A DNA stretch of 64,000 nucleotides from Streptomyces sp. SUK 48. GTDB lineage: Bacteria; Actinomycetota; Actinomycetes; Streptomycetales; Streptomycetaceae. Where the stretch lies: positions 434,001 to 498,000 of the forward strand of contig NZ_CP045740.1 in assembly GCF_009650765.1 (NCBI RefSeq), in the 5' to 3' direction. Position numbers and translations under genes: made by a program. Of this stretch, positions 24,578 through 35,904 are shown piece after piece. Every line of letters begins with the position of its first letter. Position 1 is the stretch's first letter. Below the pieces are notes generated by a model that was not told the DNA's origin, ran no database searches, and saw only the letters and a list, made by a program, of their open reading frames with translations.

Positions 24578-24793
24578 ATGAACTCCACCCCCCAGGTCCA
24601 GACCGCTGAGATCGCCGACGCCGAGCTGGACGCCGTCTCCGGTGGTCTCCAGGTGAACGCCCTCAACACCGTGACCGGCGCCGTCAACGGCATCGCCCCG
24701 GTCTCCGACCTGGCCAACACGGCCATCGGCACGGTCGAGGGTGTCACCGGCCTGAACGTGGCCCCGGTCACCGGCCTGGTCGCCGGTCTCTGA
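24578..24793 (+). CDS. double-glycine leader peptide precursor (71 aa)
   Basis: The leader (residues 1-23) ends in 'AELDAVSGG', the double-glycine site that C39-peptidase ABC exporters cut. The 48-residue core is hydrophobic and rich in Val, Gly, Thr and Asn, with no Cys, Lys, Arg or aromatic residue. It contains two imperfect repeats of about 15 residues (31-45 and 52-67) with shared 'TVxG' and '(I/V)APV(S/T)' parts. The ATG at 24578 has GAAGGGAAG at a good distance, and an in-frame ATG at 24560 is weaker. A hairpin separates it from the exporter genes. It is probably an exported bacteriocin-like or signalling peptide. Confidence 0.85.
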   Translation: MNSTPQVQTAEIADAELDAVSGGLQVNALNTVTGAVNGIAPVSDLANTAIGTVEGVTGLNVAPVTGLVAGL

Positions 24794-24818
24794 CCGAGCC
24801 TCTTGCCTCCCCGTCGGT

Positions 24819-24843
24819 CCCGGAGCCGTCCCCCGGCTCCGGG
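24819..24843 (+). terminator. attenuator-like hairpin after the precursor gene
   Basis: A perfect 10-bp stem (24819-24828 with 24834-24843) and a 5-base loop lie between the precursor and the exporter operon. Partial termination here would give more precursor than exporter mRNA, as in many peptide loci. Confidence 0.7.
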
Positions 24844-24896
24844 GCTCTCGGGCGTCCCGAAACACCCGCGACTCCCCCACAGGTGAGGGAAGTTCC

Positions 24897-25703
24897 GTGC
24901 AGTTCCGCCAACAGGCCCTCGCCAAGCTCCAGTCGCCCCAGGAGCTGGACCTCCCGGTGCGGCTCGCCCGCCCGCAGGGCCGGCTCGCGCTCGGGGTCAC
25001 CGTCGCCGTCATGGCCGCGGCCTCCGTCTGGGCGGTGACCGGTTCGGTCGCCTCCACGGTGAGCGCGAGCGCCATCCTCACCCACGGGCAGGGCAGTTAC
25101 GTCCTCCAGAGCCCCGTGGCGGGTCAGGTGACGGCCGTCCTCGCCCGGCAGGGCCGGCAGCTGCCCGCGAACGCCCCCGTGGTCAAGGTCCGTACCCCGC
25201 AAGGGGATTCGGTGGTGCGCACGGTCGCCGCGGGCCGGATCACCACGCTCGCCGCCACCATCGGGCAGATCGTGCAGACCGGCACCGACGTGGCCGCCGT
25301 CGAGAAGACCGCCCACCCGGACGACCCGCTGTACGCGACCGTGTACGTCCCCGCCGAGAGCGCCGCCGCCATCCCCGCGCACGCCTCCGTGGACCTCACC
25401 GTCTCCTCCGTACCGGCGCAGCGCTACGGCGTGCTGCGCGGTCAGGTGCGCTCGGTGGACCGGGCCGCGCAGTCCGCGCAGTCGATCGCCGCGTTCCTCG
25501 GCGACAGCCAGCTCGGCCGCCAGTTCACCGAGGACGGCCGCCCGGTCGCCGTGACCGTGCGCCTTGACGGCTCGTCCGCCACCAGGAGCGGCTACCGGTG
25601 GTCGACCGCCGACGGGCCGCCGTTCCGGCCGGCCTCCATGACCCTCGCCTCCGCCTCCATCCGGCTGGCCGACCAGCACCCCGTCGATTGGCTGCTCCCG
25701 TGA
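24897..25703 (+). CDS. HlyD-type adaptor of an NHLM peptide export system
   Basis: This 268-residue periplasmic-adaptor-like protein has a short cytoplasmic N terminus, one membrane helix near residues 31-50, a lipoyl-like half ('YVLQSPVAGQVTAVLARQGRQL') and a C-terminal beta-barrel region. It is the membrane-fusion partner of the two ABC proteins downstream, as in systems annotated 'NHLP bacteriocin system secretion protein'. The GTG start has GAGGGAAG upstream. The stop overlaps the GTG of the peptidase-exporter by four bases. Confidence 0.88.
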   Translation: MQFRQQALAKLQSPQELDLPVRLARPQGRLALGVTVAVMAAASVWAVTGSVASTVSASAILTHGQGSYVLQSPVAGQVTAVLARQGRQLPANAPVVKVRTPQGDSVVRTVAAGRITTLAATIGQIVQTGTDVAAVEKTAHPDDPLYATVYVPAESAAAIPAHASVDLTVSSVPAQRYGVLRGQVRSVDRAAQSAQSIAAFLGDSQLGRQFTEDGRPVAVTVRLDGSSATRSGYRWSTADGPPFRPASMTLASASIRLADQHPVDWLLP

Positions 25704-27925
25704 CGCCCGCCCCCCAGGAGACCCGCGGCCGCAGACGCGCCGCCCCCGCCCGGCGTCCGGCCCCCGCCTCCCGTGCCGGCACCGTCCGCACGCCCACCGT
25801 GCTCCAGATGGAGGCCGTCGAGTGCGGCGCCGCCGCCCTCGCGATGGTCCTCGGCCACTACGGCCGCCATGTCCCGCTGGAGGAACTGCGCATCGCCTGC
25901 GGGGTCTCCCGGGACGGCTCGCGCGCCAGCAACCTGCTGAAGGCGGCGCGCGGTTACGGCCTGACCGCCCGGGGCATGCAGATGGACCTGGCCGCCCTCG
26001 CCGAGGTGCGCGCCCCGGCCATCCTGTTCTGGGAGTTCAACCACTACGTCGTCTACGACGGGACGGGCCGCCGTCTCGGTCGGCGCGGCATCCACATCAA
26101 CGACCCCGCCAAGGGCCGCCGTTTCGTGCCCCTGGAGGAGTTCGACGGCAGCTTCACCGGGGTCGTCCTGGTGCTGGAGCCCGGCGAGGACTTCACCCGG
26201 GGCGGGCGCAGGCCGGGCGTGCTCGGCGCGCTGCCGGCCCGGCTGCGCGGCACCGCGGGCACCCTGCCCGCCGCGGTGCTGGCCAGTCTGCTGCTGGTCG
26301 CGGTCGGCGCGGCCGTACCGGCGCTGAGCCGCACCTATATCGACATGTTCCTGATCGGCGGGCAGACCTCGCTGCTGGGCGTGCTGTTCACCTCGATGGC
26401 CGCCTGCGTGCTGCTCACCCTGGTGCTGACCTGGCTCCAGCAGGCCAATCTGCTGCACGGCCGGATCATCTCCTCCACCCTGAGCAGCGCCCGCTTCCTG
26501 CGCCATCTGCTGCGGCTGCCGGTGACGTTCTTCGCCCAGCGCTCCCCCGCCGACCTGGTGCAGCGCCTCCAGTCCAACGACCAGGTGGCGGAGACGCTGG
26601 CCCGCGACCTGGCGGCGGCCGGCGTGGACGCGATCGTGGTCGTGCTGTACGCGGTGCTGCTCTACACCTACGACCCCCAGCTGACGTTCCTCGGCATCGG
26701 CGTGGCCCTGCTGAACATCGCCGCCATGCGGCTGGTCGTACGGCTGCGCGCGACCCGCACGGCCAAGCTGCGCGCGGACACCGCCCGGCTGACCAACACG
26801 GCATACACCGGGCTCCAGTTGATCGAGACGATGAAGGCGACCGGCGGTGAGGACGGCTACTTCCGCAAGTGGGCCGGGCAGCACGCGGCCACGCTGGAGG
26901 AGCAGCAGCGGCTCGGGGTGCCGAGCGCCTGGCTCGGGGTGGTCGCCCCGACGCTGGCCACGTTCAACAGCGCGCTGATCCTGTGGATCGGCGGTCTGCG
27001 CGCCGTCGAGGGGCATATCTCGGTGGGGCTGCTGGTGGCCTTCCAGGCGCTGGTCACCCGCTTCACCGCGCCGCTGACCCGGCTCAACGGGGTGGCGGGC
27101 CGCATCCAGGACTTCGCCGCCGACGTGGCCCGGCTGAAGGACGTGGAGAACTTCCAGGCCGATCCGCTCTACGCGCGGGGCGGCCCCGGCGACGAGACGC
27201 GCCGGCTGCACGGCCATGTCGAGCTGGAGAACGTGACGTTCGGCTACAGCCCGCTGGACAAGCCGCTGCTGGCCGGCTTCGACCTGACCGTGGGACCGGG
27301 GCGGCAGGTGGCCCTGGTGGGCGGCTCGGGCAGCGGCAAGTCCACCGTGTCCAGGCTCATTTCGGGGCTGTACGCCCCCTGGGACGGGGTGATCCGGATC
27401 GACGGCCGGCGCCTGGAGGACATCCCGCGCGGCGCGCTCGCCGCCTCCGTCTCCTTCGTGGACCAGGAGGTGTTCCTCTTCGAGGGCTCGGTCCGCGACA
27501 ACGTCGCCCTGTGGGACCCGTCCGTCCCGGACGAGGCGGTGGTCGAGGCGCTGAAGGACGCGGCCCTGTACGAGGTGGTGGCGCGCCGGCCCGGCGGCAT
27601 CCACGGCAAGGTCGACCAGGACGGCCGCAACTTCTCCGGCGGGCAGCGCCAACGCCTGGAGATCGCGCGGGCGTTGGTGCGCAGGCCCAGCATCCTGGTC
27701 CTGGACGAGGTGACCAGCGCGCTGGACGCGCAGACCGAGCTGGTGGTGATGGACAACCTGCGCCGGCGCGGCTGCGCCTGTGTGGTGATCGCGCACCGGC
27801 TGAGCACGGTCCGCGACAGCGACGAGATCGTCGTCCTCCAGCACGGCACGGTGGTCGAACGCGGGCGGCACGAGGAGCTGGTGGCGCGCGGCGGCGCGTA
27901 CGCGGCGCTGGTCAGGGAGCGTTGA
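25700..27925 (+). CDS. peptidase-containing ABC exporter (C39 peptidase, NHLM family)
   Basis: This 741-residue membrane protein cuts the double-glycine leader and exports the peptide. The N-terminal C39 peptidase has Gln36, catalytic Cys42 in 'EAVECGAAALAMVLGHYG', His115 in 'FNHYVVYDG' and Asp135 in 'INDPAKG', so the triad is complete. Six membrane helices follow (about residues 180-440). The ATPase domain then has GSGSGKST near residue 545, 'FSGGQRQR' and 'ILVLDEVTSALDA'. It overlaps the adaptor upstream and, by one base, the second ABC gene downstream. Confidence 0.94.
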   Translation: MTPAPQETRGRRRAAPARRPAPASRAGTVRTPTVLQMEAVECGAAALAMVLGHYGRHVPLEELRIACGVSRDGSRASNLLKAARGYGLTARGMQMDLAALAEVRAPAILFWEFNHYVVYDGTGRRLGRRGIHINDPAKGRRFVPLEEFDGSFTGVVLVLEPGEDFTRGGRRPGVLGALPARLRGTAGTLPAAVLASLLLVAVGAAVPALSRTYIDMFLIGGQTSLLGVLFTSMAACVLLTLVLTWLQQANLLHGRIISSTLSSARFLRHLLRLPVTFFAQRSPADLVQRLQSNDQVAETLARDLAAAGVDAIVVVLYAVLLYTYDPQLTFLGIGVALLNIAAMRLVVRLRATRTAKLRADTARLTNTAYTGLQLIETMKATGGEDGYFRKWAGQHAATLEEQQRLGVPSAWLGVVAPTLATFNSALILWIGGLRAVEGHISVGLLVAFQALVTRFTAPLTRLNGVAGRIQDFAADVARLKDVENFQADPLYARGGPGDETRRLHGHVELENVTFGYSPLDKPLLAGFDLTVGPGRQVALVGGSGSGKSTVSRLISGLYAPWDGVIRIDGRRLEDIPRGALAASVSFVDQEVFLFEGSVRDNVALWDPSVPDEAVVEALKDAALYEVVARRPGGIHGKVDQDGRNFSGGQRQRLEIARALVRRPSILVLDEVTSALDAQTELVVMDNLRRRGCACVVIAHRLSTVRDSDEIVVLQHGTVVERGRHEELVARGGAYAALVRER

Positions 27926-30756
27926 TGCGCGTTCAGGAGGGCTACGAGGGCGACCTGGTGCTCGGGGCGCTGGGCGCGCTCGGCACCCGGGTCGACTGCG
28001 CCGGGTTCACCCGCCTCGACCTGGAGGGCCCCGAGGTGCTGTGGCTGGTGGCGGCCGGCGCGCTGGACCTGTTCGCGGTGGACGCCGGACAGCAGGGCCA
28101 CTGGCACCACCTGGGCCGCCTGGAGGCGGGCGCGCTGCTGCTGGGACCGGTCACCGGCCCCCAGCACACCCTGGTGGCCCGCCCGGTGCGGGACTGCGTG
28201 GTGCACCGGGTGAACCTGCGCGAGCTGTACCAGCAGGCGGGCACCCAGACCTGGTCCTACGACGCGCACGGGCGGCCGCAGTACGTGCCGCCCGCGTCCA
28301 GCCCGCTGGAGTACGCCCTCGCGCTGGGCGTCGGCCGCGGCCTGTCCGTCCTCTTCCAGGCCCCGCTGGCCGAGGAGCGGCCCGAAGTCCTCACGGACGA
28401 CGACGTGTTCTGGATGCAGGTGCCGCCGGGCAGCGTCCAGTACGGCTCGCTGTACGGCGCACAGGCCGCCGCCGATCTGCTGATGGACCCGGCGCTGTGG
28501 CAGTCGCTGGTCGACCAGCAGTACCGGCTGCTGACCGCGCTGGACCGCTGGATCGAGCAGCTGGAGCGCAGCCATGAGACCCGCACGGCCGCCGGGATCA
28601 AGGCGGGTGAGGCGGCGGGCGCCCAGGCGGACCGCACCCTGCTGGCCTCGATCGGCCGCCGCTCGGGGCGTCGTACGACGGCCGCCGACGCCGATGCCAC
28701 GTACGCGGCCTGCGTGCTGGTCGCCGAGGCCGCCGGGATCACGCTCGCCGAGCCGGCCCGGGGCGGCGCCGAGAGCGAGCGCCTCGATCCGGTCGAGCGG
28801 GTGGCGCTGGCCTCCCGGGTGCGCACCCGGGCCGTACGGCTCCAAGGGCGCTGGTGGCGGGAGAACGTGGGGCCGCTGGTGGGACAGCGGGCGCTGTCCG
28901 GGGCGCCGGTCGCCCTGCTGTGGCGGCGCGGCGGCTATGCGGCCGTCCACCCGGGCAGCGGCCGGGAGACGCCCGTCGACAAGGCGAACGCGGAGGAGTT
29001 CGAGCCGCGCGCGGTGATGTTCTACCGGCCGCTGCCCGACAAGGCGCTCTCGCCCCTCGGGCTGCTCCGGTTCACGCTGGGCGGTGCCCGCGGCGATCTG
29101 CTCGGGCTGCTGGTGGCGGGACTGGTGACGGTGGCGATCGGCGCGCTGGTGCCCATCGCGACCGGCAAGGTGCTCGGCGAGTACGTGCCGAGGGCCGAAG
29201 AGGGCCTGATCGTCCAGGTGTGCCTGGCGGTGATGGTGAGCGGGGTGGTGTCGGCGGCGTTCACGCTGCTGGAGAACCTGTCGATCCTGCGCCTCGAGGG
29301 GCGCGTCGAGGCGGCGCTGCAACCGGCCGTCTGGGACCGGCTCCTGCGGCTGCCCACCCGGTTCTTCACCGAGCGCTCCACCGGCGAACTGGCCAGTGCC
29401 GCCATGGGGATCAGCGCGATGCGCCGGATGCTGGCGGGCGTCGGCCCGGTGGTCGCCCAGTCGGTGACGGTCGGCGCGATGAACCTCGGTCTGCTGTTCT
29501 GGTACAGCGTGCCGATGGCGCTCGCGGCGATCGGGATGCTGGTCGTGATCGCGGCCGTGTTCCTGGGGCTCGGGCTGTGGCAGGTGCGCTGGCAGCGGCG
29601 CCTGGTGGTGCTCGGCAACCAGCTCAACAACCAGGCGTTCCAGACCCTGCGCGGGCTGCCCAAGCTGCGGGTCGCGGCCGCCGAGAACTACGCCTACGCC
29701 GCGTGGGCAAGGGAGTTCGCGCGCAGCCGGGAGCTCCAGCAGAAGGCGGGGCGGATCAAGAACCTCACCGCGGTGCTCGGCGCGGTCTATCTGCCGGTGT
29801 GCTCGCTGCTGATGTTCATGCTGCTGGCGGGCCCGGCGAGGGGCACGCTGTCGGCGGCGGACTTCCTCACCTTCAACACCTCGGTGACGATGGTGCTGAC
29901 CTCCGTCACCCAGCTGACCGGCTCGCTGGTGTCGGCGGTGGCCGCGCTGCCGCTGTTCGAGGAGATCCGGCCGGTCCTCCGGGCCGCCCCCGAGGTCCGC
30001 GCCGCGAGCACCCGGCCCGGTCCGCTCACCGGGGCGCTGGAGACCCGCAAGCTGTCCTTCCGGTACTCCGACGACGGCCCGCTCGTCCTGGACGACGTCA
30101 GCTTCGCCGTCCGCGCGGGCGAGTTCGTCGCGGTCGTCGGCCCCAGCGGCTGCGGCAAGTCCACGCTGCTGCGGCTGCTGATCGGCTTCGACCGGCCCCT
30201 GTCGGGCAGCGTCCTGTACGACGGCCAGGACCTCGCCGCCCTCGACCAGTCGGCGGTGCGCCGGCAGTGCGGGGTGGTGCTCCAGCACGCCCAGCCCTTC
30301 ACCGGCTCCCTCCTGGACGTCATCTGCGGCACCGAGCCGTACACCCCCGAGGAGGCGATGGCGGCGGCCGAGATGGCGGGGCTCGCGGAGGACATCAAGC
30401 GCATGCCGATGGGCCTGCACACCCTCGTCTCGGGCAGCGGCTCGGTCTCCGGCGGGCAGCGCCAGCGGCTGATGATCGCCCAGGCGCTGATCCGCCGCCC
30501 CCGCGTCCTCTTCTTCGACGAGGCGACCAGCGCGCTGGACAACGACACCCAGCGCGTCGTCATCGAGAGCACCCGCAAGCTGAACGCCACCCGGGTCGTG
30601 ATCGCCCACCGCCTGTCCACGGTCATGGACGCGGACCGGGTGATCGTCATGGAGGACGGCCGCGTGGTCCAGCAGGGCAGCCCGGCCGACCTGCTCGCGG
30701 ACACGACGGGACGGCTGCACGAACTGGTGCGGCGGCAAATGGCCGAAACGCATTGA
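27925..30756 (+). CDS. second NHLM-type ABC transporter permease/ATPase (943 aa)
   Basis: The N-terminal 370 residues have no peptidase. They look like the cyclic-nucleotide-binding-like and linker region typical of 'NHLP bacteriocin export ABC transporter' subunits. Six membrane helices follow (about 385-660), then an ATPase domain with GPSGCGKST, 'SVSGGQRQRLMIAQAL' and 'LFFDEATSALDND'. It pairs with the C39 exporter as in other NHLM loci. Start ATG 27925 overlaps the previous stop by one base (TGATG). The length fits the family. Confidence 0.92.
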   Translation: MRVQEGYEGDLVLGALGALGTRVDCAGFTRLDLEGPEVLWLVAAGALDLFAVDAGQQGHWHHLGRLEAGALLLGPVTGPQHTLVARPVRDCVVHRVNLRELYQQAGTQTWSYDAHGRPQYVPPASSPLEYALALGVGRGLSVLFQAPLAEERPEVLTDDDVFWMQVPPGSVQYGSLYGAQAAADLLMDPALWQSLVDQQYRLLTALDRWIEQLERSHETRTAAGIKAGEAAGAQADRTLLASIGRRSGRRTTAADADATYAACVLVAEAAGITLAEPARGGAESERLDPVERVALASRVRTRAVRLQGRWWRENVGPLVGQRALSGAPVALLWRRGGYAAVHPGSGRETPVDKANAEEFEPRAVMFYRPLPDKALSPLGLLRFTLGGARGDLLGLLVAGLVTVAIGALVPIATGKVLGEYVPRAEEGLIVQVCLAVMVSGVVSAAFTLLENLSILRLEGRVEAALQPAVWDRLLRLPTRFFTERSTGELASAAMGISAMRRMLAGVGPVVAQSVTVGAMNLGLLFWYSVPMALAAIGMLVVIAAVFLGLGLWQVRWQRRLVVLGNQLNNQAFQTLRGLPKLRVAAAENYAYAAWAREFARSRELQQKAGRIKNLTAVLGAVYLPVCSLLMFMLLAGPARGTLSAADFLTFNTSVTMVLTSVTQLTGSLVSAVAALPLFEEIRPVLRAAPEVRAASTRPGPLTGALETRKLSFRYSDDGPLVLDDVSFAVRAGEFVAVVGPSGCGKSTLLRLLIGFDRPLSGSVLYDGQDLAALDQSAVRRQCGVVLQHAQPFTGSLLDVICGTEPYTPEEAMAAAEMAGLAEDIKRMPMGLHTLVSGSGSVSGGQRQRLMIAQALIRRPRVLFFDEATSALDNDTQRVVIESTRKLNATRVVIAHRLSTVMDADRVIVMEDGRVVQQGSPADLLADTTGRLHELVRRQMAETH

Positions 30757-30838
30757 TCCATAGGACACCTTCTTGCCGGAACCTGATTCGGCCGGTATTC
30801 AGGTTGGCGACCTGCCGGCACTGACGAAGGAGAATGCG

Positions 30839-30940
30839 ATGGCCGAGGAAATCTCGATCGAGGAACTCCAGGAGATCGCGGACGTCGAGGCGCGCGCCGC
30901 CGAGGCGTCGCAGGAACTGCGGGCCGCGGTCGTCGAGTAA
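30839..30940 (+). CDS. very short acidic peptide (33 aa), possible second precursor
   Basis: A 33-codon gene has a near-perfect ribosome site (GAAGGAG, 8 bases before the ATG) and is followed by a long hairpin. The peptide begins MAEEISIEELQEIADVE and ends 'AAVVE'. It contains nine Glu, one Asp and two Arg, and no Cys, Gly, Lys or aromatic residue. The N-terminal half looks like the helical recognition part of RiPP leaders, but there is no double-glycine site. It could be a substrate of the two enzymes encoded just after it, a carrier-like peptide, or a small regulator. It is too short for routine gene finding. Confidence 0.65.
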   Translation: MAEEISIEELQEIADVEARAAEASQELRAAVVE

Positions 30941-30951
30941 ACGTTCCCGCG

Positions 30952-30989
30952 CGTGCCGGTGCCGTCCCCACGGGGGCGGTACCGGCACG
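30952..30989 (+). terminator. long hairpin after the 33-aa peptide gene
   Basis: A 17-bp stem with two G-U pairs (30952-30968 with 30973-30989) and a 4-base loop begins 12 bases after the stop. It lies 44 bases before the next gene, so it may be an attenuator rather than a full stop. Confidence 0.8.
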
Positions 30990-31032
30990 TCAGGACGGCG
31001 CGGACACCTGACATCCGGCGTGGGAGAGAGAA

Positions 31033-32895
31033 TTGACGAAGCTCCGTAGGACGGTTCCCTACCTTTCCCGTTCCCATAGCGAAGAAAAAACGGAACCGGT
31101 AATTCTCGTGGATTCCGTGGAGCTTCCGCTCGCCGCGGCCGGCCACGCGGCGCTGCTGACCACCCTGCTGCGCCCGCTCGGGCTCGGTCCCGCCGACCGG
31201 TGCCTCCCGGCCGCCGAGGCCGAACAGCTGGTCGAGGCCCAGTACCGGGCGAGCCTGGAGTTCGTCTACGGCCACCCCGTGTGGCGACGCATCCGCGCGG
31301 CCCGCGGCACCGACGGCGCCGCGCCCGTCCTCGCCTACCTCCTGGAGTCGCGCCACTATCTGGCCGCGGCGCCGTTCCGGATGGCCAGCGGCATCACCGA
31401 CGCGCTGCGGCCCGGCCCCCTGATCCGCCTCCAGGCACACCATGTGGTCGAAGAGGCCGACCACGACACGTACTTCGAGAACGGGCTCGCCGCGCTGGGG
31501 CTGCCCCGCGACCTGGTCCGCGAGGCCCGCCCCGGGCCGGTGACCGTCGAGTGGATCCACCTCATGCGCACGGTCGCCGCCTACGGTCCGCTGGCCGCCG
31601 CGATCTGCTCCGGGCTGCTGGAATACACCGCGGGGGACCGCGAGTCGGTCGCCGGGTGGCACACCATGCTGGTCGACCAGGGAGTCCTCTCCCGCGAGGC
31701 GGTCGACGCGATCTTCGAGCATGTGCAGACCGACCTCGGCCTCGGCCACGGCTCCAACTGGCGGCACGCCCTGGAAGCCGCCCGCGTCGTGCCCGCAGCC
31801 GAACTCGCCGACTGGCTCAACGCGGTGAGCCTGGTCGCCGAGATGATCGTGCGCTGGCTGGAGACGTTCACCGAGGGCCTGTCGGCGACCGTGGTCGAGG
31901 CGGCCCCGGCCCTCGCCCTGGACGGTCCCGTCCGCACCCTCGGCGGCGAGGCCGACGGACTGCCGGTGTGGCCCGCCGAGATCTACGACTCCGTGACACA
32001 CGGCCCGCGCAGCCCGCGCCCCGGCGTCCGCCGGACCCTCGCGCTCGCCTACACCTTCGCCGGGCGCGCCACCGACCGGGAACCGGGCGCGCCGGGTACG
32101 GGACCCACCCCCGCCACCGCCGCACGCGACCTGACCGCCCGCACCGCGCGCGACTGGGACGGCGGCACCGGGGCGGCCGACCTGGAGAAGCTGGTCGAGG
32201 GCTGGATGACGGCCATCGACGGACACCGGCTGTGGCGCCGCCTCACCGAGGAGCCCACCCTCCCGCTGGTGCACGGCTGGATGGTCGAGAACTACCACTA
32301 CGTCGCCGGGATCTGGCAGCACTGCGGCGCCGCGGTCGCCGCCTGCCCCGACCCCGTGATCCGGGCCGAACTGGTCAAGCACCTGACCGAGGAGTTCAAC
32401 CACGGCAAGATGTTCCTGCGCGGCATCGAACGAGCGCGCGGGGACCGCTACGCCGGGCTGCCCACCGACCGGATGCGGCCGCTGCCGACCACGGTCGCGT
32501 TCGTCGGCACCCTGCGCGAACTGGGCCAGCGCGACTGGAAGGCATACGTCATCGCCCTGACCTACCTCCAGCTGTCGCTCAGCGCCGTGGACGGCGGGGT
32601 GCACGCCCGCCACGACGGCTTCTATCGCACGGTGTTCGACCGGTGTCCCGGTGCGGAGGCGATGGTGGCGGCGATGCGGCGCCACGACGACGAGGACACC
32701 CGGCTCGGTCACGGCGACGACACCCGGGTGCTGCTCGACCTGCTCACCGATCGGCACCGCGTCGACCGCGAGTCCGTCGCCGCGGCCGCCCTCGTCCCCC
32801 AGCTCACCTGGAGCTTCCTGGACGGGATCCTCCAGCACTACCGGCACGGCGAGGCGGCGATCGTCCAGCGCGCCGGCTGGCACGTCGATGCCTGA
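31033..32895 (+). CDS. tandem heme-oxygenase-like iron enzyme (620 aa)
   Basis: The protein holds two helical HO-like (iron-containing redox enzyme) domains. Each repeats the same ligand pattern: E105-x2-H108 ... H137-x2-E140-E141-x2-H144 in the first, and E419-x2-H422 ... H450-x2-E453-E454-x2-H457 in the second. Single-domain relatives bind two irons and use O2 for desaturation, C-C cleavage or N-oxygenation. Both sites look complete here. The TTG start has GGGAGAG upstream. It overlaps the following gene by 8 bases and sits downstream of the 33-aa peptide. The substrate is unknown and could be that peptide or a free small molecule. Confidence 0.8.
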   Translation: MTKLRRTVPYLSRSHSEEKTEPVILVDSVELPLAAAGHAALLTTLLRPLGLGPADRCLPAAEAEQLVEAQYRASLEFVYGHPVWRRIRAARGTDGAAPVLAYLLESRHYLAAAPFRMASGITDALRPGPLIRLQAHHVVEEADHDTYFENGLAALGLPRDLVREARPGPVTVEWIHLMRTVAAYGPLAAAICSGLLEYTAGDRESVAGWHTMLVDQGVLSREAVDAIFEHVQTDLGLGHGSNWRHALEAARVVPAAELADWLNAVSLVAEMIVRWLETFTEGLSATVVEAAPALALDGPVRTLGGEADGLPVWPAEIYDSVTHGPRSPRPGVRRTLALAYTFAGRATDREPGAPGTGPTPATAARDLTARTARDWDGGTGAADLEKLVEGWMTAIDGHRLWRRLTEEPTLPLVHGWMVENYHYVAGIWQHCGAAVAACPDPVIRAELVKHLTEEFNHGKMFLRGIERARGDRYAGLPTDRMRPLPTTVAFVGTLRELGQRDWKAYVIALTYLQLSLSAVDGGVHARHDGFYRTVFDRCPGAEAMVAAMRRHDDEDTRLGHGDDTRVLLDLLTDRHRVDRESVAAAALVPQLTWSFLDGILQHYRHGEAAIVQRAGWHVDA

Positions 32896-33841
32896 GACGG
32901 CCCGACGAGCGGCCGGGGACGGCCTGTTCGGCGTGGGCGCCGTGCTGCCGCTGGAGCGGCGGCCCCTGCGGGAACCCTTCGCCGCGCTGCGCGACCTGTT
33001 GGCCGAGGGCGTGCCCGGCGACGACACCGCGGCCCTGCGCGACCCCCGGCTCCCGCACGCGGTGTGGCCGGGGGCGCTCGCCCGGGAGGTGGCCGCCACC
33101 GCGCGCTGGGCGGCCCGGCGGACGCTCGCCCTCGCGGGCCGGGAACCCGCCGCCCGGGCCGGCTGGCACGGGCGCGGGCGGGTGCTCGCCCTGCTGCCCG
33201 CCCACGGGCACACGGTCCATCTGCTGCGGCGGGCCGCGCCGTTCGCGGTGTGCGGCTTCCCGGTACTGGTCGCGGGCCACGACCGGCAGCGCGCCGCGAT
33301 CGCCTCGGCGGTGTCCCGGACGGCACGGCTGCTGCGCCTGCCCGAGGACTCGCTGCGCCCGGCAGCCGTGCCCGCCGCCGAGGCGGTCACGGCGCTGACC
33401 GCCGACGACCTGGTGGTGGTCACCGGACACCCCGCCACCGCCGAGAAGGTGCGGGCGGCCACCCGCGCGAGTGTGCTGGGCGCCACCGGCGGCTGCGTGG
33501 TGCTCGCCGGCCCCGGCGGCGAGCGGCTCGACGCGGCGGCGGCCGCGCTCGGCGCCCATCAGCACCCCGGCAGCTGCACCCGCCTCGGCGGGGTGTGGCG
33601 CACCGGAGCGGCGGGCGCCCCGCCCTGGCGGCGGCGCGACGACACCGCGGCCACGCCCGCGGAGGCCGTCGCCGCGGCCCACCCCTCGACCGTCCTCAGG
33701 CTCGTCGACTCCCTCGACGAACCACCCGCGGAGGTCGCCGGATACACCGCCCTGCCGTGCGACGCGGCCGGCGCGCTCGGCACCCTGGTGGGCTTCGGAC
33801 GCGACCCGTGGCAGGGGTGGCCCGGCGACTTCCTCGTATGA
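32888..33841 (+). CDS. short aldehyde-dehydrogenase/LuxC-like protein (317 aa)
   Basis: I recognise only parts. 'RGRVLALLPAHGHTVHLL' with 'FPVLVAGHDRQR' recalls the Rossmann core of ALDH/LuxC proteins. 'DLVVVTGHPATAEKVRAATRASVLG' corresponds to the TGS segment. Cys230 in 'HQHPGSCTRLGGV' sits where the catalytic cysteine is expected. The protein is much shorter than an ALDH (about 480 residues), so it may be a reductase of a novel subfamily or a non-catalytic partner. It overlaps the tandem HO-like gene by 8 bases, suggesting a complex or sequential reactions. The fold call is moderate and the reaction is not known. Confidence 0.5.
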   Translation: MPETARRAAGDGLFGVGAVLPLERRPLREPFAALRDLLAEGVPGDDTAALRDPRLPHAVWPGALAREVAATARWAARRTLALAGREPAARAGWHGRGRVLALLPAHGHTVHLLRRAAPFAVCGFPVLVAGHDRQRAAIASAVSRTARLLRLPEDSLRPAAVPAAEAVTALTADDLVVVTGHPATAEKVRAATRASVLGATGGCVVLAGPGGERLDAAAAALGAHQHPGSCTRLGGVWRTGAAGAPPWRRRDDTAATPAEAVAAAHPSTVLRLVDSLDEPPAEVAGYTALPCDAAGALGTLVGFGRDPWQGWPGDFLV

Positions 33842-33938
33842 CACGCGGGACGCGGATGCCCCGCGAGACCCGGAGAACGCGCGGCACCGGCGACGGCCGA
33901 CGAGCCGCCGACGAGCGAGCAGGCAAAGGACGACAGAC

Positions 33939-35234
33939 GTGGCGTTGAGCACGGGTACGGTCCGCAGCGGCACCTTCAGGCTGCTGTGGGGCGGTCAGAC
34001 GATCTCCGTCATCGGGGACGGCGCGGCGGCCCTCGCCGTCCCCCTGCTGGTGATCCACGCCACCGGCAGCCCGGTCCTGGGCGCCCTCGCGGCGACCCCC
34101 CGCACCGTCGCGTACCTGCTCGTGGGCTTCCTCGCCGGGCCCATCGTGGACCGTATGCGCAACCCCCGACGGGTGATGCTGGTCTGCGACCTGCTGCGCT
34201 TCGCGGTGTTCGGCGCGCTGCCCGCCGCCGTGCACGCCCCCTTCGGCCCGGGGCTCGTCCTGCTGCTGGCCTTCGCCGCGTCCTCGGCCGGGGTGTTCTT
34301 CGAGACCGCCCTGGCCGTCGCCGTCCAGACCAGTCTGCGCCCGCGGGACCTGGTGACCGGCAACGCCCGCTTGGAGATGAGCAATCAGCTCGGTCTGCTG
34401 CTGGGGCCCGCCGTCATCGGGACCGGGGTGGCCGCGTTCGGCGTGCCCTCCGCGATGTGGTTCAACGCCGTCACCTTCCTGCTCTCCGCCCTCACCCTCG
34501 TCCCGATGCGCTTCGACGCGGGTGCCCCGGCCGAGCCCGGGGCGCGTGCCTCGGTCCGCCGGGACATGGCCGAGGGGCTGCGCTACATCCGCGGCCACGC
34601 GCTCGTCATGCGGCTGGTCTCGCTCCAGGTGGTCATCAACCTGGTGATCGCCGCCGAGACGCTGGTCGTCTTCTACGCCACCCACGATCTGCACGCCTCA
34701 CCCACCTGGATCGGTGTCATCCTCGCGGCGGCCGGGCTCGGCGGCATCGGCGCCACCTCCGTCGCCAACGCGGCGGCCCGGCGCTTCGACGCCGGTCCGC
34801 TGATCGCCGTGTCCGTCATCGGCCTCGGCGGGACCCTGCTGGCCATGGGGGCGGCCCGCGATCCGCTGTTCCTGGCCGCCGCGAACTTCCTGCACGGGGG
34901 CCTGTCGGTGTTCGCGTCCGTGCACATCCGCGCCGTGCGCCAGCGCGTCGTGCCGCCGCAGTTGCTCGGCCGGGTGACCGCGAACGCCCGTACGTTCGCG
35001 TTCGCCGCCAACCCCCTGGGCGCCGTGCTGTTCGGCGCGATCGCCTCCGGCGCGGGCGGCGACGCCCGCTGGAGCTTCCTGACCGCCGCCGCCCTCAGCG
35101 TGGCCAGCGCGGCGACCGCCTGGCGCGGGCTCGCCGCACACCGCGCCCGGCCGGCCGCGGACGACGGTGAGGACGACGAACCGAAGGCCCCGGGACCGGA
35201 GGTCGCGCCCGAATCGGGCGCGGCCTCCGCGTAG
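33939..35234 (+). CDS. MFS exporter
   Basis: This 431-residue major-facilitator protein has about 12 membrane helices. The signature loop 'GPIVDRMRNPRRVML' lies after helix 2, and a hydrophilic acidic C-terminal tail is present. It resembles the MFS_3/enterobactin-exporter-like group used for efflux and self-resistance. The GTG at 33939 has AAGGA 9 bases upstream. It lies 97 bases after the ALDH-like gene on the same strand and is plausibly the efflux step for the product of this locus. Confidence 0.88.
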   Translation: MALSTGTVRSGTFRLLWGGQTISVIGDGAAALAVPLLVIHATGSPVLGALAATPRTVAYLLVGFLAGPIVDRMRNPRRVMLVCDLLRFAVFGALPAAVHAPFGPGLVLLLAFAASSAGVFFETALAVAVQTSLRPRDLVTGNARLEMSNQLGLLLGPAVIGTGVAAFGVPSAMWFNAVTFLLSALTLVPMRFDAGAPAEPGARASVRRDMAEGLRYIRGHALVMRLVSLQVVINLVIAAETLVVFYATHDLHASPTWIGVILAAAGLGGIGATSVANAAARRFDAGPLIAVSVIGLGGTLLAMGAARDPLFLAAANFLHGGLSVFASVHIRAVRQRVVPPQLLGRVTANARTFAFAANPLGAVLFGAIASGAGGDARWSFLTAAALSVASAATAWRGLAAHRARPAADDGEDDEPKAPGPEVAPESGAASA

Positions 35235-35268
35235 GCTCACGACCCTGGAACCGTCACAGGAGGGGACG

Positions 35269-35904
35269 TTGTTCGTTCAGCCATGGGACGCCGGGACGGC
35301 CGAGGAGGGCCTCGAACTGGCCCGGGCGCACCGGTTCGGGCAGTTGGTCGCGGCCGGGCGGGGGCGCGACGTGCCGGTGGTCGTGCCGACGCAGTTCGTC
35401 GTGGAACGCGGCGCGGACGGGGCGGAGGTCCTGCTGCATCTCGCCCGTGCCAACCCCGTGTGGGCCGCGATCGAGGAGAACCCGGTCGTCATGATGTCCG
35501 TCGCCGGTGACTGGGCCTACATCCCGGGCGCGTGGAAGACCATCGGCGACGAGGACCCGGCGCGGGGCGTCCCGACCACCTACTACGCCGCCGCCCAGCT
35601 GGTCGGCACCGCGCGGATCGTCACCGACGCCGAGGGCAAGGCGGAGATCCTGCGCCGCCAGCTCGCCCGCGAGGAGAGCGACGGCGGCGCCTCCCTCGTC
35701 GACCCCGCCGAACACGGGCGGCGCCTCTCGGGTATCCAGGGGCTGCGGGTCCGGGTGGAGAAGGTGACCGCCAAGTTCAAGTACGGCGGCAACGCGGACG
35801 CCCCGCACCGCGCCCACGTCGCCGGCCTACTGGCCCGCCGGGCCGGTCCCGGGGACGCGATCGCCCGGCGGCGGCTCGTGGACCGCGCGGACGACGGAGG
35901 CTAG
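35269..35904 (+). CDS. PaiB-like FMN-binding negative regulator family protein
   Basis: This 211-residue protein has the FMN_bind_2/PaiB split-barrel pattern, with 'HLARANPVWAAI', 'VAGDWAYIPGAWK' and 'TTYYAAAQLVGTARIV'. The C-terminal 'SGIQGLRVRVEKVTAKFKYGGN' is also typical. Bacillus PaiB affects sporulation and protease genes, but most homologues probably act as flavin or heme-linked enzymes. The TTG start at 35269 is supported by the strong CAGGAGGGGA ribosome site. It is 34 bases downstream of the MFS gene and could be co-transcribed with it. Confidence 0.85.
   Translation: MFVQPWDAGTAEEGLELARAHRFGQLVAAGRGRDVPVVVPTQFVVERGADGAEVLLHLARANPVWAAIEENPVVMMSVAGDWAYIPGAWKTIGDEDPARGVPTTYYAAAQLVGTARIVTDAEGKAEILRRQLAREESDGGASLVDPAEHGRRLSGIQGLRVRVEKVTAKFKYGGNADAPHRAHVAGLLARRAGPGDAIARRRLVDRADDGG

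Follow-up and report, generated by a model that had tools for sequence, protein, structure and literature searches.

The stretch of DNA at positions 24578-35904 places two peptide genes beside an exporter and a set of predicted oxidative enzymes, which raises the question of whether these genes form one system and, if not, which peptide belongs to the enzymes. The window is the whole stretch of 64,000 nucleotides that was analyzed, and all features discussed here lie on its forward strand. An earlier note on this DNA had described the locus gene by gene, and that description was confirmed. The annotated gene content falls into two units, however, and not one.

Unit 1 (24578-30756) encodes a 71-aa double-glycine peptide precursor (24578..24793) and an NHLM-type exporter. 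The exporter consists of an HlyD/NHLM-type adaptor (24897..25703; TIGR03794, 143 bits against a cut-off of 156), a C39 peptidase-permease-ATPase, NHLM ABC1 (25700..27925; TIGR03796, 1013 bits), and a 943-aa permease-ATPase, NHLM ABC2 (27925..30756; TIGR03797, 886 bits). Both ABC proteins exceed their curated cut-offs, which identifies an NHLM/NHLP export system. Of 150 genomes sampled from the genus, 109 carry an NHLM exporter over cut-off, and homologues of the 71-aa precursor (72-89% identical) adjoined the exporter in all 20 loci fetched, again from the same genus. By contrast, a search of the genus found the tandem heme-oxygenase-like (HO-like) gene of unit 2 in 1 of 246 genomes, the window's own. 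A protein search did recover other Streptomyces carrying the HO-like protein, e.g. S. bathyalis and strain NEAU-sy36. Among 12 other loci, exporter genes lay beside the HO-like gene only in S. malaysiense, whose HO-like protein is 94% identical, and the fetched flanks of the remaining 11 held no NHLM exporter genes. In the Streptantibioticus and Microbispora genomes, the NHLM exporter was on a different contig from the HO or ALDH gene, and six of the nine HO-bearing genomes searched had no NHLM exporter over cut-off. Unit 1 is an ordinary neighbor: a separate system common in the genus, with its exporter in most of the sampled genomes and its 71-aa peptide well conserved.

The earlier note had linked the exporter and the 71-aa peptide to the HO-like and ALDH-like proteins and had proposed co-occurrence across genomes as the check. 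The two are rarely together and their distributions differ, so the link is not supported. A single locus, with the HO/ALDH pair modifying the 71-aa peptide and the NHLM system carrying it out of the cell, was rejected on this distribution (109/150 vs 1/246, and adjacent in 1 of 12 loci) and seems to us highly improbable. The two units are adjacent on the same strand and their synteny is preserved in S. malaysiense, but the HO/ALDH pair comes with a peptide of its own. Because the pair and the exporter are mostly found apart, the 33-aa peptide is the more likely partner of the pair, rather than the 48-residue core of the larger precursor. The suspicion that a new peptide family and unfamiliar chemistry are present was sound.

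Unit 2 (30839-35234) begins with this 33-aa peptide, which ends in LRAAVVE (30839..30940) and is the proposed substrate or carrier. In all 13 loci, the window included, a peptide of 31-56 aa is encoded immediately before the tandem HO-like gene, an arrangement that fits a candidate RiPP precursor next to a modifying enzyme. In these 13 loci, the C-terminus reads L-R-A-A-[VI]-V-Glu-stop or a close variant. Among 101 peptide matches, which include several of the queries and the peptide of the window itself, 99 have a C-terminal Glu, 100 have Arg at -6, and 99 have Leu at -7. A C-terminal Glu on a small protein is also a feature of the AmCP (LysW type) carriers. Conservation is strongest at this end of the peptide, and residues upstream are conserved as well, with the N-terminal part carrying the pattern L..EDL..L..LVERTE.AA. 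Over the last seven codons, synonymous steps outnumbered non-synonymous ones in seven of the nine pairs counted (28 vs 10 in total), while non-synonymous steps prevailed in the other two. Five Leu and five Arg codons are used in the peptide end among the 13 loci. The strictly kept C-terminal segment might instead be a binding tail.

In the tandem HO-like (HDO) protein of 620 aa (31033..32895), each half is a homologue of the other (hhalign 99.2%), and both match CADD, TenA, PqqC, HrmI, FlcD, and PolF by structure. The HDO ligand motif is E, ExxH, HxxxD...H. Both domains have the HO-like helical fold and this carboxylate/His dimetal ligand set, at putative site 1 (E105/E141/H144/H230/D234/H239) and putative site 2 (E419/E454/H457/H551/D555/H560). 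Among 65 homologues, two shorter ones were left out; the ligand residues of both sites were kept in all 63 of at least 545 aa, except E105, which was kept in 62. The original HO-like call on this protein was correct, and its two putative metal sites are conserved in homologues.

The next gene encodes a compact protein of 317 aa (32888..33841). About 260-280 of its residues align with ALDH structures at 4-5 Å rmsd, the targets being mostly 450-530 aa long, and this places it in the ALDH fold. C203 and C230 are invariant in 24 aligned rows, some of them near-identical, and C230 was provisionally matched to the catalytic ALDH Cys by eye. None of 10 members matched Pfam Aldedh or LuxC at E values up to 10, and LuxC membership is therefore not claimed; of the ALDH/LuxC-like assignment made earlier, the fold holds by structure and the LuxC family does not hold by sequence. 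A PDB sequence search with the ALDH profile built for this protein returned ALDH rows only at E 0.36, which is too weak to count alone. The compact gene follows the HO-like gene in 9 of 12 outside loci. In five of the eight HO-bearing genomes searched, it was present as one copy each, only beside the HO-like genes, and it looks dedicated to its HO-like partner. It is absent in Microbispora and in a Rhodospirillales MAG and is thus not essential everywhere. The last gene of the unit encodes an MFS exporter (33939..35234; PF07690, E 3.5e-25); an MFS homologue is near the HO-like gene in five of the 12 outside loci, and the other seven have no near MFS gene.

The peptide and tandem HDO genes form the core of unit 2, and we regard them as a real find: an undescribed gene pair in distantly related bacteria, compact and dedicated. 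The 13 loci are labeled Actinobacteria, Pseudomonas, Chloroflexi, Gemmatimonadaceae, and others, although four of the 12 outside loci come from MAGs and their labels are possibly wrong. One locus titled Melainabacteria is closest to Mycolicibacterium (HO 56%) and has 65% GC. Searches for further HO loci found none that was new in 396 genomes of the phylum, 296 relatives, 297 genomes of the order of genome G249, or 149 genomes of Pseudomonas, and the sole match in each was already known. Among viral contigs, 28 stretches fit the search patterns and none encoded a relative; plasmids gave no match. Two short peptide patterns underlie the contig scan, and scoring in the protein search was confined to the best-sharing 7996 candidates, so the counts of loci and homologues are lower bounds. 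No published description of the peptide and tandem HDO pair was found in a literature search that was thin on subscription papers.

Several known systems resemble unit 2 in part. HDOs occur in peptide pathways, as described for VarO (PMC6511847) and MboA (PMC13185094). The mangotoxin acetylenase MboA is reported to desaturate the C-terminal residue of a tripeptide, and so, as is proposed for the enzyme here, oxidizes the end of a peptide (PMC13185094). It differs in that its substrate is made by ATP-grasp ligases and ends in Arg, and it needs a redox partner, MboB. VarO, from the thiovarsolin RiPP cluster, is an HO-like enzyme that takes part in making a ribosomal peptide, and its cluster, like unit 2, includes an MFS gene; that pathway uses a YcaO/TfuA system and a repeating precursor, and the account of the cluster names no ALDH and does not present VarO as tandem (PMC6511847). 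Pearlins (TglA, TmoA) and AmCPs (LysW, Vzb22) share with our peptide a small carrier with chemistry at its C-terminus, which is Glu in AmCPs (PMC9303977, PMC9016710). In contrast to those pathways, the nine window proteins scanned include no PEARL (LanB-like) enzyme, ligase (ATP-grasp included), DUF692 protein, or RRE. The same scan also separates unit 2 from PqqA/PqqC and mycofactocin. Those systems are distinguished by a radical SAM enzyme and PqqD/RRE, neither of which was among the window proteins scanned, and the peptides of unit 2 type end in Glu and conserve no Tyr near that end.

The closest layout is in the 4-formylaminooxyvinylglycine (FVG) cluster of Pseudomonas fluorescens WH6, compared here by its description. 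The cluster listing places a small ORF, gvgB, directly before gvgC, which has a 'Heme-oxygenase 2' domain, and both are reported as required for FVG, an oxidized vinylglycine amino acid (PMC8067088). The gvgB peptide is shorter than 50 aa (PMC8064604) and differs from ours in being about 30% lysine. Table 1 for the cluster lists no ALDH, unlike unit 2 (PMC8067088), and FVG production depends on a lipase/esterase, a carbamoyltransferase, and an aminotransferase, for which the nine window proteins scanned showed no domain. With no lipase/esterase or carbamoyltransferase domain among them, these proteins do not amount to the gvg-type core, in which those two enzymes accompany gvgA, gvgB, gvgC, and gvgF. 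A PF14518 protein occurs in 240 of 249 Pseudomonas genomes. At 30 fetched PF14518 loci, among the best-scoring, no upstream peptide with an LRAA[IV]VE-type C-terminus was found, and gvgC was not recognized there.

These features suggest that unit 2 is a biosynthetic system based on a ribosomal peptide, with the tiny peptide and the fused double HDO as its constant core. We lean towards the peptide being a ribosomal substrate or carrier, with the twin HDO oxidizing its C-terminal Val-Glu, and the pair probably makes a small molecule from the peptide end; both the reaction and the product are inferred. The lack of a recognizable protease, RRE, or known RiPP class enzyme among the unit 2 proteins scanned counts against this reading. 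The cell would make more of the peptide than of the enzymes, in some high-GC loci with the help of a 3' hairpin. Judging from conservation, its N-terminal L..EDL..L..LVERTE.AA would serve as the recognition region and the C-terminal L-R-A-A-[IV]-V-Glu would enter the enzyme. The C-terminal residue or residues could then be oxidized twice in succession, by the two dimetal-oxygen sites. By analogy, the simplest candidate is UndA-type oxidative decarboxylation or desaturation of the terminal Glu, giving for example a C-terminal vinylglycine, which the second site may oxidize further. The ALDH-fold protein would take an aldehyde or acyl-thioester intermediate and finish or release the product, and the MFS protein, where present, would export it. 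More tentatively, unit 2 may represent a new multi-phylum ribosomal-peptide class in which a fused HDO converts the C-terminal Glu, or Val-Glu, of a 31-56-aa peptide to a reactive non-proteinogenic residue, vinylglycine for instance, and the ALDH-fold protein completes or releases it, with gvgB-gvgC following a cousin logic. If so, this would be, to our knowledge, the first case of a double-site HDO with a ribosomal peptide as its substrate. A tiny peptide ending LRAA[IV]VE before a double HDO would then be a marker for RiPP discovery, and a testable idea would follow for gvgB, the small ORF required for the herbicidal amino acid FVG.

Other roles for the peptide have to be weighed against that of an oxidized substrate. 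It could be a regulatory or structural subunit of the HDO, with its tail docking at or near the active site and gating O2 chemistry on a free small molecule. The peptide does stay with the HDO where the ALDH gene is missing (L005, L012) or no MFS gene is near (7 of 12 outside loci), residues upstream of its C-terminus are also conserved, and no protease was seen among the unit 2 proteins scanned. We nevertheless consider a subunit unlikely, because the very C-terminus with its free Glu is the most conserved part, and spacer hairpins in some loci suggest peptide excess. We also know of no HDO that needs such a peptide subunit, and the partner described for MboA is a flavin/Fe2S2 reductase (PMC13185094). 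A LysW/AmCP-like or pearlin-like carrier, in which an amino acid or other group attached to the C-terminal Glu is altered by the HDO and ALDH and then released, so that the peptide can be used again, appears less likely still. AmCPs are described as activating the γ-carboxylate of a C-terminal Glu, and pearlin pathways as building on a carrier peptide C-terminus (PMC9303977), and an ALDH-fold enzyme suits acyl chemistry. In the Mycolicibacterium locus, an ATP-grasp protein whose C-terminal domain is of the L-amino-acid-ligase kind is encoded convergently to the ALDH gene. However, the nine window proteins scanned include no ligase or PEARL, and ten neighbors scanned from six outside loci include a single ATP-grasp protein, on the opposite strand in L011.

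The spacer that separates the peptide stop codon from the start of the HO-like gene bears on both peptide excess and a further reading. It folds into a strong GC hairpin in the window (30953..30988; z -5.5 against mononucleotide shuffles). Folding found spacer hairpins in six of 13 loci (the window, L002, L003-L005, and L013), two of which, the window and L002, are close relatives, and none in L006-L012. The L002 hairpin is similar to that of the window, while those of L003-L005 and L013 are at the same place with other sequences; in L004 and L005, they are not clearly beyond shuffles (z -2.2 and -1.1). The hairpin may act as a transcript 3' stabilizer or partial terminator, and its presence in these loci suggests that the peptide is wanted in excess. 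A small ORF followed by a strong hairpin could also be a regulatory leader peptide, an attenuator for the enzyme genes. This is very improbable, as the amino acids at the C-terminus are conserved across several phyla while their codons change mostly at synonymous positions, inspection by eye showed no regulatory codon repeated in a row, and over half of the loci (L006-L012) do without the hairpin.

Downstream of the MFS gene, an FMN-binding/PNPOx-like protein (35269..35904, in the ORF 35167-35904; PF04299, E 1.2e-24) is a possible accessory to unit 2, and a homologue is also found downstream in L002 and L004.

The window (434001-498000) lies on a single 8.34-Mb contig of a high-GC actinomycete, and in a pattern scan of the genome collection Streptomyces malaysiense was the named species with the most closely related locus. 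All the genes named in the earlier note were recovered in place on the + strand. In unit 1 (24578-30756), the exporter pair matched PF03412, TIGR03796, and TIGR03797 over cut-off (Pfam, NCBIfam), and the adaptor matched TIGR03794 just below cut-off (NCBIfam). In unit 2 (30839-35234), the 620-aa protein contains two PF03070 stretches (Pfam). The start of the ALDH-like frame, an ATG at 32888, overlaps the HO stop. The transporter is an MFS_1 protein, followed by an FMN-binding protein.

The earlier note had treated the exporter and the HO/ALDH pair as one system. In a search of 246 genomes of the genus at E 1e-10, only the window's own genome carried the tandem HO-like protein; a sample of 396 genomes from across the phylum and a set of 296 relatives each contained it once. 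Of 150 genomes of the genus, which, judging by handle numbers, are part of the 246-genome sample, 109 had a TIGR03796 match over cut-off. Twelve outside HO loci came from a single pattern scan of the genome collection. Among these, an NHLM exporter was found only in S. malaysiense within the fetched flanks, which reached about 10 kb in either direction at eight loci and were cut short by contig ends at L003, L010, L012, and L013. TIGR03796 was over cut-off in three of nine HO-bearing genomes, and in two of those three the exporter was on a different contig from the HO or ALDH gene. By the refuting test that the earlier note itself proposed, this distribution counts against a single locus, which is unlikely; units 1 and 2 are two units rather than one.

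The 71-aa double-glycine peptide and NHLM exporter (24578-30756; genus loci L023-L042) were strongly conserved across the genus, unlike a variable bacteriocin. Among the best 20 of the 109 exporter loci, all 20 had a precursor homologue (72-89% identical) and the adaptor. At the Streptantibioticus NHLM exporter locus the match to the precursor was weaker (50% over 52 aa); the Microbispora exporter locus had no match.

All 12 outside HO loci carry a small-peptide frame that closes with L-R-x-x-[VIM]-[VIL]-E-stop 43-152 bp upstream of the HO match (92 bp in the window), and the final 27 residues align without gaps. Ten of these peptides, used as queries against 5.8 billion proteins, returned 101 matches at E ≤10, among them the peptide of the window and several of the queries themselves; 100 were at E ≤2.7e-3. 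Glu was terminal in 99, with Val at -2 in 93, Arg at -6 in 100, and Leu at -7 in 99. The exceptions to terminal Glu were P0127, which ends in Lys, and P0182 (E 3.4), which is probably unrelated. By eye, the longest contig of 13 peptide clusters was exactly as long as that of an HO homologue, suggesting that these are the same contigs. The strict octad pattern occurred once in the whole own genome and not at all in the reverse-read control. Five Leu codons and five Arg codons are used in the peptide across 13 loci. Over its last seven codons, nine pairs gave 28 synonymous vs 10 non-synonymous steps, with synonymous steps prevailing in seven; thus, it is the amino-acid sequence that is conserved.

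The 317-aa ALDH-like protein has no ALDH or LuxC match in Pfam, but its predicted model (pLDDT 91.6) has an ALDH fold by structural comparison. It had 16 database matches, itself counted. Two cysteines were invariant in 24 rows, some near-identical: C203 in GATGxC and C230 in SC[TS]. By eye, C230 is the counterpart of the ALDH nucleophile, and the general-base Glu is absent. The gene adjoins the HO gene in nine of the 12 outside loci (L002-L004, L006-L011); none was near HO in L005 or L012, and the L013 contig stops within the HO gene. Of eight HO-bearing genomes searched, five had the protein, each as a single copy adjoining HO. An MFS homologue lies near HO in five of the 12 (L002-L005, L010), the L004 copy being upstream on the opposite strand.

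Three points need explaining: peptide and double HDO are invariably paired, the C-terminus is strict and bears a free Glu, and the ALDH-like protein is dispensable yet dedicated. HDOs are known to desaturate or cleave amino-acid side chains. The simplest account would be that the C-terminal end of the peptide is the substrate and the remainder serves as its handle, an arrangement shared with RiPP and carrier-peptide pathways. We propose that UndA-type loss of the gamma-carboxylate and a beta-hydrogen could convert the C-terminal Glu to vinylglycine; the substrate role, the order of steps, this product, and its export are likewise putative, while the genes, their pairing, the conservation, the predicted folds, and the distribution were shown directly. 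VarO (PMC6511847) and MboA (PMC13185094) exemplify HDO action in peptide pathways, and in gvgB-gvgC (PMC8067088, PMC8064604) a small ORF precedes an HDO gene, as in unit 2, and is required for an oxidised vinylglycine.

The peptide could also be a regulatory subunit of the HDO, which seems less likely. That it is a carrier with some group attached to Glu is less probable still, with a hint in its favor from Mycolicibacterium komossense, where an ATP-grasp protein whose C-terminal domain is of the L-amino-acid-ligase type (L011:12892-14181, - strand) is convergent to the ALDH-like gene and is a possible ligase partner. Attenuation by the small ORF is unlikely. A GC-rich hairpin directly follows the peptide stop, before the HO start, in the window (30941-31032), L002-L005, and L013. 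Spacer z values against mononucleotide shuffles were -5.5 in the window and -6.1 in its close relative L002, -3.9 in L003, and -3.8 in L013; those of -2.2 in L004 and -1.1 in L005 mean that these hairpins are not strong. L006-L012 have short spacers and no such hairpin. Among the more distant loci, the hairpin sequences are unrelated.

Unit 2 would be a pathway of the ribosomal-peptide or carrier-peptide kind that uses HDO chemistry, and there is a real chance that it is a new class. We are aware of no named class matching it, and searches of a largely open-access literature collection listed no paper on this peptide and tandem HDO pair.

The spread across phyla depends partly on MAG titles (L006, L010, L012, L013). 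L010, a contig titled Candidatus Melainabacteria, has 65% GC, and its HO-like protein most resembles the Mycolicibacterium one (56% identical), so its title may reflect a binning error. This doubt does not apply to the Pseudomonas loci, which come from records titled as strains.

Ten neighbour proteins from L003, L004, L005, L007, L011, and L012 were scanned; the single L012 protein had no match. L004 has an FMN-binding protein and a short-chain dehydrogenase, and L005 a methyltransferase and an acyl-CoA dehydrogenase. In Streptantibioticus (L003), a chorismate-binding/amidotransferase enzyme lies upstream, and the unit is extended (L003:10667-14849) by a TauD-type oxygenase after the ALDH gene, a protein resembling a metal-dependent hydrolase by eye, the MFS gene, and then a redoxin. 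Redoxin/AhpC-TSA relatives (45-47% identical) flank the unit there (L003:14265-14849) and in three Pseudomonas loci, upstream on the opposite strand in L007 (8772-9335), and are perhaps linked to a reactive product. In Microbispora, genes that by eye resemble those for an acyl carrier protein and a ketosynthase lie about 1.3 kb upstream of the unit (L005:5909-8671) and are preceded by the acyl-CoA dehydrogenase (Pfam).
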